IMG/VR virus record: IMGVR_UViG_3300025101_000178
Span: 1 to 24,610 of that record
Length of the DNA: 24,610 nt
DNA from: a virus
Direction: 5' to 3' (one strand)
The position numbers and the translations under genes are program-made. The notes beneath the pieces are model-generated. The model saw only the letters and a program-made list of their open reading frames with translations, was not told where the DNA came from and did no database searches. Positions 1,659 to 22,303 of the stretch are shown one piece after another (the stretch's first letter is position 1; the number at the start of each line of letters is the position of its first letter).

Positions 1659-3530
1659 TTGGTCACGTTAACACAACAAGCAGAAACAGTAGCGTCAAAG
1701 AGATATTATTTAAAAGACGAATCAGGTGAACCTGAAGAAAACGCAAATACATTATTAGAAAGAGTAGCTAAAGCTATAGCATCTTCTGAAAAATTATATG
1801 GAAAGTCAGATGCAGATGTAGAATTAACGACAAAAGAATTTTATGATATGATGACCGAGTTAAACTTTATACCTAACTCTCCGACACTCATGAACGCTGG
1901 CACAAAACAAGGCACATTGTCTGCGTGTTTTGTACTACCTTTAGAAGATAGTATGGAAGACATTATGAAGGCAGCTCATGACATAGCTATGGTACAAAAG
2001 TTTGGTGGTGGGACGGGCTTTGCCCTAAGTAAGTTACGTCCAAGAGGCGATAAGATAAAGACAACTCATGGTATTGCTTGCGGTCCAATACAAGTGTTAC
2101 AGACACTATCTAGAGTATCATCCATGATTACTCAAGGTGGTAAAAGAGATGGGGCAAACATGGCAGTAATGTCAGTCTACCATCCAGATATATTAGAGTT
2201 TATTGACTGCAAAAAAGTAGAGGGTGAAATACATAACTTCAACATATCAGTAGGTGTAGACTCTAACTTTATGAAAGCCGTAGAAGCTAATCTTAATTAC
2301 CCACTAATAAATCCAAAGAGTAAACAAGTGGTCGGTGAGTTAAACGCAAAAGAAGTATTTGATAAAATGGTATACGGTGCGTGGAGAAACGGCGAGCCCG
2401 GTATGATTTTCCTAGATGAAGTGAATAAAGACAATCATGTTACAGAAGAATATGGTGAAATGATTGCGACAAATCCATGTGGGGAACAACCATTATTAGG
2501 AAATGAATCGTGTAATTTAGGTTCTATTAACTTAGCTAACTTCGTATACACTAAAGAAGTAAGACCTTACATTAACTGGGACGGATTACGAAGTACAATT
2601 ACAACAGCTACAAGATTTTTAGATAATGTAATTGATGCTAATAAATATGCAACTCCAGAAATAGAAAAAATGACTAAAGCTACAAGAAAAATAGGTTTAG
2701 GTATTATGGGATTTGCGGACATGCTTACACAACTTAGAGTTTCTTATGGTTCTAAAGAAGGTAGGAAGATAGGTTCTGATATAATGAGGTTCTTAAAGAC
2801 ACATGCAGATAAAGCATCTAAAGATTTGGCAGAAGAAAGAGGAACTTTTCCAGCATGGGATAACAGTGATTACGGTGAGGATGAAAAATATAGGAATGCA
2901 TGCAGATTAACTGTTGCACCTACAGGAACTATCTCTATGTTTGCTGACGCATCTAGTGGAGTAGAACCATTGTTCTCTTTAGCTTATAGAAAGATGAACA
3001 TATTAGAAGGTGAAACACTTTACTATGTGAATAAATACTTTGAACAAGATGCTAAAGAAATGGGTTTCTATTCAGATGAGTTGATGGAATACTTATCTGA
3101 CGGGGGACAATTAAAAGATAGACCTGAAGTGCCTGATGAAATAAAAGAAATATACACTACAGCACCTGAGATATCTCCTGAAGCACACGTTGGGATGCAA
3201 GCAGCTTTCCAAGAACATTGTGACTCTGGAATATCTAAGACGATAAATTTTGCAAATGATGCTACAATAGAAGATGTGTACACAACTTATATGCTAGCTT
3301 GGAAGACAAAATGTAAAGGAATTACAGTATATAGAGCTGGTAGTAGAGATAAAGAAGTATTAGTAACTGCACACAAATCAGATGAGACTACACCATCTGA
3401 GACAGAAGAACAACTTAACTTTTTTCAAGAAATAGAAGAAGCAGATTGTTGTGTAGAACCTAACATAGTTATGGAGTCTGGTTGTAAGACATGTAAAACT
3501 TGCGGGTGGAGTGCTTGTCATATAGCATAA
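1659..3530 (+). CDS. nrdJ: Class II (adenosylcobalamin-dependent) ribonucleoside reductase
   Basis: The enzyme reduces ribonucleotides to deoxyribonucleotides using a B12-generated thiyl radical, providing DNA precursors during infection. The proposed start is TTG at 1659, six bases after a perfect AGGAGG (1647-1652). Longer in-frame extensions run into the terminase gene and are not phage-like protein. Numbered from TTG (623 residues): SACFVLPL gives Cys90; NPCGEQPL gives Asn272, Cys274 and Glu276, the radical-site triad; SCNLGSINL gives Cys285, the redox partner of Cys90; [14 protein letters not shown] and [10 protein letters not shown] are family signatures. The C-terminus has [12 protein letters not shown], matching the Cys-rich tail of NrdJ enzymes that re-reduces the active site. 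There is no N-terminal ATP-cone, so overall dATP inhibition is unlikely. A metabolic gene between terminase and portal is unusual placement. A weak TATAAT at 1517 inside the terminase 3' end could add transcription. Confidence 0.94.
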
Positions 3531-20553: not shown

Positions 20554-20787
20554 ATGGATTACGCAGAAACTATATTTAATCAAATACTTGAAAAAGCTAA
20601 AAGAAAAAAACGAAAGAAGTCTACTGTAAACAAAGCAGGAAACTACACTAAACCGGGTATGAGGAAACGAATGTTTCAACGAATCAAAGCTGGTTCTAAA
20701 GGTGGTGCTAAGGGACAATGGTCTGCTAGGAAAGCACAACTACTTGCACAACGATATAAGAAAGCTGGAGGAGGCTACAGGAACTAA
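20554..20787 (+). CDS. Small very basic phage protein
   Basis: A 77-residue, strongly Lys/Arg-rich protein. An N-terminal amphipathic helix with a basic tail (YAETIFNQILEKAKRKKRKK) is followed by a conserved-looking block GNYTKPGMRKRMFQRIKAGS then WSARKAQLLAQRYKKAGGGY. I recall this block from marine phages, but cannot give a family name or function. Charge suggests nucleic-acid contact, perhaps within the virion. AGGA (20546-20549) overlaps the preceding stop. It is in the same frame as the giant gene, separated by one stop and two codons, and overlaps the next ATG by one base. Confidence 0.85.
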   Translation: MDYAETIFNQILEKAKRKKRKKSTVNKAGNYTKPGMRKRMFQRIKAGSKGGAKGQWSARKAQLLAQRYKKAGGGYRN

Positions 20788-21056
20788 TGGCTAAGAAGAA
20801 GTCACAGAAGTCCCTAAAGAATTGGGGTGACCAAGATTGGGATTACGTTTCTGAAGGTGATAAAAAGAAACCTAAGAAGAAGCGTGGTAGATACTTGCCT
20901 AAGTCTGTGCGTAGAAGCCTAACACCCGGACAGAAAGCCGCGACTAATAGAAAGAAACGTAAGGCAGGTGGTGTAGGAAGCCGAGCTAAATATTCAAAGA
21001 AGGTAGCTAAGAAAGTTAGTAGCGTATCTAAACTTATAAAATACTTATCCAACTAA
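20787..21056 (+). CDS. Second small very basic phage protein
   Basis: An 89-residue Lys/Arg-rich protein. It opens with WGDQDWDYVSEGDKKKPKKK, then GRYLPKSVRRSLTPGQKAAT and NRKKRKAGGVGSRAKYSKKV, a pattern I associate with small phage proteins of unknown role, and ends with a short hydrophobic helix (VSSVSKLIKYLSN). It starts in a one-base TAATG overlap with the previous basic gene, so the two are coupled and probably act together. Its net positive charge points to DNA or RNA binding. There are no catalytic residues. Confidence 0.85.
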   Translation: MAKKKSQKSLKNWGDQDWDYVSEGDKKKPKKKRGRYLPKSVRRSLTPGQKAATNRKKRKAGGVGSRAKYSKKVAKKVSSVSKLIKYLSN

Positions 21057-21068
21057 TCCAAACTATTG

Positions 21069-21088
21069 TATAATAATAATACAGGAGG
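21069..21088 (+). promoter_or_regulatory. -10 box and SD for the cysteine-rich gene
   Basis: TATAAT at 21069-21074, followed by AGGAGG at 21083-21088, eight bases before the ATG at 21097. The transcript leader would be short and begin close to the SD. The -35 (TTATCC, 21045-21050) is weak. The perfect SD predicts strong translation of the metallothionein-like protein. Confidence 0.45.
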
Positions 21089-21096
21089 GTTAATCT

Positions 21097-21288
21097 ATGA
21101 CTGAACAATATATATGCGAGTGCGAATGTGAGTTAGACGTTCAATGCGAAGAGGGGACGTGCAAGAAAGATGAATGTGAATCGGATGAGTGTTTATCTAC
21201 ATGTTCAAATGAACCAGAAGAATATGAATGTTGTGGCGAGAATTGCTGTAACAATGATGATATTGTATACGATGAATTTGGTTGCTAG
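21097..21288 (+). CDS. Metallothionein-like acidic 13-cysteine protein
   Basis: A 63-residue protein with 13 cysteines (7, 9, 11, 17, 22, 27, 32, 36, 45, 46, 50, 51, 63), no His, and about a third Asp/Glu. The spacing includes C-x-C-x-C near the start (ICECECELD), C-x4-C ladders (QCEEGTCKKDECESDECLST) and two CC pairs (YECCGENCC), typical of metal-thiolate cluster proteins rather than zinc fingers, which pair cysteines around a folded loop. No signal peptide is present, so it should stay in the reducing cytoplasm and bind metal rather than form disulfides. It has a perfect SD and its own -10 box. It does not align by eye to a known bacterial metallothionein, so metal binding is inferred from composition. 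Confidence 0.78.
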   Translation: MTEQYICECECELDVQCEEGTCKKDECESDECLSTCSNEPEEYECCGENCCNNDDIVYDEFGC

Positions 21289-21934: not shown

Positions 21935-22303
21935 CTAATCTTTAGGGGCACCACCATGAACATCAATAGCAGACTTAGCACCTTCTTTTTTAACCCTGTA
22001 AGTATCAGTTTGAGCATGGCAATTAGGACATACCAACTGCAAGTTCTTTTCGCTATTATCATTATGGTCACCGTTTTTATGGTCAAGTTCTAAGGGGATA
22101 TCTTCTTGCATCCAATAAGCCAATCCACATATAGCACATACAGGTTCAAGAATACGTTCTCTGATAAGACGTATCTTCAACTTGTCACTTTGCATAGGAA
22201 CCTTATTAGAAAGATAATCTTCAATCGGTCTAGCTTTCTGAATGTCGTATTTAGTTTTTACAAATGGTGGAACACCAGATTTTCTAATTTTCTTGATTTG
22301 CAT
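21935..22303 (-). CDS. HNH endonuclease
   Basis: A 122-residue nuclease of the small HNH type found free-standing in phages. The core has CAICG (Cys56, Cys59), then LELDHKNGDHNDN with Asp74-His75 as catalytic/metal residues, NLQLVCPNCHAQTD giving Cys92, Cys95 and His96. The four cysteines form the structural zinc site and the beta-beta-alpha metal fold cuts DNA. It is the only confident gene on the minus strand, with its own SD (AAAGG, five bases from the ATG) and its own -10 boxes, consistent with a separately acquired, perhaps homing-type element. It could instead act in packaging, but it is far from the terminase. Confidence 0.88.
   Translation of the reverse strand: MQIKKIRKSGVPPFVKTKYDIQKARPIEDYLSNKVPMQSDKLKIRLIRERILEPVCAICGLAYWMQEDIPLELDHKNGDHNDNSEKNLQLVCPNCHAQTDTYRVKKEGAKSAIDVHGGAPKD

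Follow-up and report, generated by a model that had tools for sequence, protein, structure and literature searches.

The window, by which we mean the whole stretch of 24,610 nucleotides analysed here (IMG/VR virus record IMGVR_UViG_3300025101_000178), carries a short gene for an acidic and extremely Cys-rich protein, termed below the Cys-ladder protein. Table 1 lists this gene together with its leader, its neighbours and one gene located elsewhere in the window.

Table 1. Features of the Cys-ladder locus and the window
Feature	Coordinates	Strand	Basis or remark
RNR (ribonucleotide reductase) large-subunit gene	1674..3530		class II type by halovirus matches; between terminase and portal
K77, small Lys-rich protein (phrog_17747)	20554..20787	+	upstream, conserved block
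K89, small Lys-rich protein (phrog_14910)	20787..21056	+	next gene upstream; common among related viruses
TATTGTATAATA leader motif, possible promoter element	21064..21076	+	conserved in close relatives
Shine-Dalgarno (SD), AGGAGG type	21082..21087	+	sequence; G-rich SD retained in all homologues
Cys-ladder acidic protein gene, metallothionein-like	21097..21288	+	ORF, composition, homologues, invariant Cys columns
g116, translationally coupled partner, 116 aa	21289..21639	+	abutting/overlapping stop/start; co-occurrence; AF2
HNH homing-endonuclease-like gene	21935..22303	-	PADLOC HEase, E 1.8e-21

The Cys-rich gene and its neighbourhood

The Cys-ladder ORF runs from an ATG start to a TAG stop and encodes 63 residues (MTEQYICECECELDVQCEEGTCKKDECESDECLSTCSNEPEEYECCGENCCNNDDIVYDEFGC): 13 Cys, 15 Glu, 6 Asp and 2 Lys are present, while His and Trp are missing. 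With 21 Asp/Glu against 2 Lys/Arg the net charge is approximately -19. The Cys residues are arranged in a CxCxC motif, a C-x4-C ladder, two CC pairs and a CCGxxCC cluster. This agrees with the composition reported in an earlier note on the same DNA (13 Cys among 63 residues, CxCxC, C-x4-C, two CC pairs, an acidic background and no His), as does the claim made there that a signal peptide is lacking, since on inspection the N-terminus is not hydrophobic. Among 25 other genes taken from the window Cys makes up 0.69% of residues, so that the Cys-ladder protein is ∼30-fold enriched; at this background the binomial probability of at least 13 Cys in 63 residues is 6e-16. In 200 Markov-random windows with matching dinucleotide composition, moreover, the 10,999 stop-free stretches at least 60 codons long included not one with such a Cys content. 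The ORF is confirmed as a real gene and not a chance reading frame.

The AGGAGG, the perfect SD of the earlier note, lies 9–10 nt ahead of the ATG. The leader from TATTGTATAATA to the SD is kept in close relatives, including two (L002 and L008) whose DNA further upstream differs; the motif is missing ahead of the Cys genes of two divergent relatives (L025 and L031), which begin ∼10 bp after the preceding stop codon and simply follow K89. The gene had also been credited with its own -10 element. A TATAAT is indeed there, but neither a sigma-70-like site nor a -35 partner was found with it, the element is absent from the two divergent relatives, and the + strand of the window has 20 copies of the same hexamer. 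Since the virus is probably archaeal (see below), a bacterial -10 need not apply to this gene.

Both clades of homologues described below share the gene order K77-K89-CYS-g116-HNH(-)-g155-g111, with the HNH gene in the same place in relatives of each. No metal-transport or metal-sensing gene was recognised near the Cys gene. K77 and K89 form a tandem of Lys/Arg-rich proteins (23 and 30 Lys/Arg, respectively, and no Cys) whose PHROGs have hundreds of homologues in viral contigs; they are possibly DNA-condensing or head proteins. In L008 (7140–7835) an extra C-terminal domain lengthens K89 to 231 residues ahead of the Cys gene. In L026 and L054 the K77-K89 pair sits between the RNR and portal genes and not after the structural block, so this block has moved. 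More distant viruses have, ahead of their K89 homologues, short Cys-rich ORFs unrelated to the Cys-ladder protein, of 39 residues with 8–11 Cys (L068:2041–2160 and L076:2044–2163) and of 51 residues with 6 Cys (L056:1695–1850 and L057:1357–1512), which perhaps represent another type of Cys-rich protein in viruses.

Downstream, the stop codon of the Cys gene abuts the start codon of g116 in the clade of the window (TAGATG) and overlaps it in the other clade (ATGACTAA, ATGGATAA). Abutting or overlapping of stop and start in both clades is a conserved signature of translational coupling. In one survey g116 was present in both records that carry the Cys gene and in 0 of 26 related records that lack it, and when two surveys are combined the two genes co-occur wherever they are found. 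The g116 product is predicted to consist of a basic disordered N-terminus followed by a beta-beta-beta-alpha-alpha domain (AF2 pLDDT 65, moderate). It matches profiles of phage RNA-polymerase inhibitors at E-values of 0.005–0.016 (Pfam) and 0.02–0.07 (PHROG), all below curated thresholds; these very weak hints are a lead, not a result. Nothing firm came from fold searches of PDB, viral and VIA structures, where the best Foldseek match in PDB was Acb4 of phage SPO1 (E 0.14, Z 2.6) and the best VIA match had a Z of 3.0.

These properties of g116 bear on an alternative in which the acidic Cys-rich protein would be its binding partner, an antagonist, chaperone or antitoxin-like factor acting through the basic N-terminal tail, with metal, if bound at all, only structural. 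The coupling in both clades is what such a pair might display, as are the joint presence and joint absence of the genes in the records searched and the opposite charges of the Cys protein and the adjoining tail; the faint likeness of g116 to RNA-polymerase inhibitors adds a very weak hint. Equal co-occurrence would, however, be expected of an operon shared within one lineage, the likeness lies under the profile cut-offs, nothing firm came from the fold searches, and the proposal by itself leaves 12 fixed Cys residues unexplained. We consider it unlikely.

Conservation of the Cys residues

Homologues of the Cys-ladder protein are found in nine virus records including the window, and comprise seven distinct sequences with identity down to 49%. 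A scan of viral contigs gave close relatives at 74–81% identity, all retaining the 13 Cys. The divergent pair at 49% (L025 and L031) came from reading the DNA directly downstream of the many K89 homologues; both were borne out by a profile search run on 39 records, and L025 turned up once more when the collection was scanned later. A further 31 related records, of which many are fragmentary, lack the protein, and no relative was found in 50,697 records of phages and archaeal viruses. A DNA pattern for the Cys spacing, applied to viral and genome contigs with matches filtered for reading frame, returned among the matches listed only the known members and repeats whose translations are poly-Cys, a result that does not imply absence from cellular genomes. 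A profile search of 443 archaeal genomes (200 in the class to which a Nitrosopumilales genome belongs, 243 in that of a ‘Euryarchaeota’ MAG) found none, save one chance match that was read and discarded.

The earlier note had named unconserved Cys positions in homologues as evidence that would count against its reading. What the alignment gives is the reverse: 12 Cys are invariant in all seven sequences and a 13th is present in five, with the spacing C-x-C-x-C-x5-C-x4-C-x4-C-x4-C-x3-C-x8/10-CC-x3-CC fixed throughout apart from the single gap of 8 or 10. Between the window and L025, which represent the two clades, only 35% of non-Cys positions are identical; at that rate the chance of all 12 Cys matching is ∼3e-6, a value to be taken as rough, given that positions depend on one another. 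That the Cys stay invariant against such divergence elsewhere favours a function based on thiols, for instance metal binding.

Codon usage points the same way. Silent TGT/TGC variation is seen in 8 of the 13 Cys columns among the first five sequences and the two divergent ones, and in 10 columns when a column counts once any single pair of sequences differs silently there, yet no column varies in residue. Nonsynonymous changes between the window and its relatives number 0 at Cys and about 16–50 elsewhere, and dN/dS against the close relatives is 0.06–0.11, an approximate value with synonymous sites near saturation. By these comparisons the gene is under strong selection, and the 12–13 thiols are shown to be the feature that selection holds.

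Every member has 55–69 residues, 12–13 Cys, two CxC and two CC motifs, a net charge of -19 to -22 and one to five Phe/Tyr, with no Trp or His in any. The CxxC motif is counted zero times in all seven sequences. The C-terminal 13th Cys and the DEFGC tail are restricted to the close clade, where the tail and the acidic residues are conserved.

A short Cys-containing ORF preceding another gene recalls the copper-responsive upstream ORF (uORF) CruR/DUF2946, which has a CXXC motif and an export signal, and is separated from the following gene by 162 bp without translational coupling to it (PMC9426467). By analogy, the Cys-ladder ORF might, while being translated, sense metal or Cys-tRNA and so gate g116, directly upstream of which it lies and to which it is coupled; metal-sensing uORFs at least have precedent (PMC9426467). 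But CruR relies on its CXXC and on a gap incompatible with coupling (PMC9426467), and neither is found here: the stop and start codons abut or overlap, CxxC is lacking and Cys are far more numerous, which sets the gene apart from CruR-type uORFs. RNA structure at the locus does not rise above shuffles (z 0.19), on which ground an RNA attenuator was likewise rejected, and the conserved acidic residues and DEFGC tail of the close clade argue for a working protein. We regard a sensing uORF as highly improbable.

The carrier virus and its possible host

Although the earlier note called the protein a phage product, this label is probably wrong, the best matches of the portal and capsid proteins being haloarchaeal tailed viruses. 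Among 50,697 virus records only archaeal viruses match, at E-values of 1e-31 to 1e-33 for the portal and 1e-8 to 1e-10 for the capsid, one of the latter being a Methanofastidiosa virus. The portal and the major capsid protein are relatives of those of HVTV-1, HCTV-1 and HCTV-5, at 25–30% identity. They are of halovirus type, as in archaeal tailed viruses related to Druskaviridae and Magrovirales; haloviruses have described relatives in the sea, the Magrovirales (PMC12999244, PMC10768690). The carrier differs from these groups in that its identity to them is only 25–30% and in that the phage and archaeal-virus records hold no homologue of the Cys protein. A survey of magroviruses mentions neither metallothionein nor cysteine (PMC10160649). 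Of the related records, G023 and G028 carry a family B DNA polymerase, which was not found in 11 others including the window, itself a fragment. Kinship with marine Pelagibacter or Roseobacter phages was considered and rejected, DNA-level similarity to these lying mostly in Lys-rich coding regions.

To judge from these proteins the carrier is probably a tailed virus of an archaeon. RNR is widespread in phages, and haloviruses are among the best matches of the viral enzyme. Its identity is ∼45–51% to the class of the Nitrosopumilales genome versus ∼33% to the class of G040; viral RNRs travel, so this identity is not decisive for the host. Portal homologues amounted to one match of 28% in 300 genomes of the Nitrosopumilales class and none in 292 genomes of the other class.

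Relation to metallothioneins and a proposed role

In known families the Cys-ladder protein has no place. None of its seven members matches any Pfam or NCBIfam family at E ≤ 10, the protein matches no PDB chain at that cut-off, and PHROGs give no match. The likeness to metallothioneins proposed in the earlier note does not extend to membership of a known metallothionein family: neither metallothionein models nor solved structures gave a match. In general build, the protein does resemble metallothioneins (the SmtA/BmtA type, PF02069, and those of animals and plants): it is small, with ∼20% Cys in CxC and CC clusters and few hydrophobic residues, it is apparently unfolded without metal, and its Cys are conserved across homologues, which would suit them as ligands. 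It differs in being virus-encoded and very acidic, in its dominant C-x4-C spacing and in lacking CxxC, a combination of regular ladder and absent CxxC that is unusual among known metallothioneins. SmtA-type proteins use His, which is missing here. Unlike classical animal metallothioneins, each Cys-ladder member has one to five aromatic residues; bacterial metallothioneins also tolerate Tyr.

Other small Cys proteins found in archaea or archaeal viruses, namely zinc fingers or ribbons, rubredoxins, ferredoxin-like proteins and the haloarchaeal CPxCG micro-proteins, are built on CxxC knuckles. Lacking CxxC, the Cys-ladder protein does not fit the usual designs of zinc fingers or ribbons, ferredoxins and rubredoxins.

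Could the Cys instead form disulfides? The gene directly follows structural and Lys-rich genes on the same strand, and the 12 common Cys are an even number, as might be expected of a disulfide-stabilised structural or virion-associated mini-protein, oxidised after release or in an oxidising compartment. CxCxC and adjacent CC motifs are, however, poorly suited to disulfides, no signal peptide was seen, the close clade has 13 Cys, and almost no hydrophobic residues are available to form a core; such a protein seems to us quite improbable here.

Given a chain that is acidic and has few hydrophobic residues, and a cytoplasm that is presumably reducing, the CxCxC, CC and CCGxxCC motifs make metal-thiolate binding the best explanation. 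We accordingly favour, at a probability of roughly 0.5, a small cytoplasmic metal-thiolate (metallothionein-like) protein of a tailed archaeal virus, made together with g116. It would be disordered when empty of metal and, in the reducing cytoplasm, its Cys thiolates would fold on their acidic backbone around d10 metal ions, as in metallothioneins, with a load of about 3–4 Zn(II), or more Cu(I), per protein. AF2 without ligand predicts no fold (pLDDT 37), a model of no use for fold search; as weak evidence, it is compatible with folding only on metal. Presumably translated from one message with g116, near the late structural genes, the protein would during infection buffer or sequester metal or act as a thiol reserve, and would perhaps serve or shield g116. 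The gain to the virus may be metal supply, deprivation of host enzymes or protection; the earlier note had suggested zinc or copper buffering, the stripping of metal from host enzymes or a guard against redox stress. If this holds, it would be metallothionein-like in action while belonging by sequence to no metallothionein family.

Within the open-access literature, so that earlier reports may exist elsewhere, we came across no bacterial or archaeal virus that encodes a protein for buffering metal, and no relevant phage metallothionein. Tentatively, and with rather less than even confidence, we picture a metallothionein-like family with its own Cys-ladder architecture, carried by archaeal tailed viruses and translated with a partner, that may manipulate the metal or redox state of the host. 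As a family with conserved thiols that can easily be expressed and assayed for bound metal, it would open a part of metal control in archaeal virus infection to direct test.
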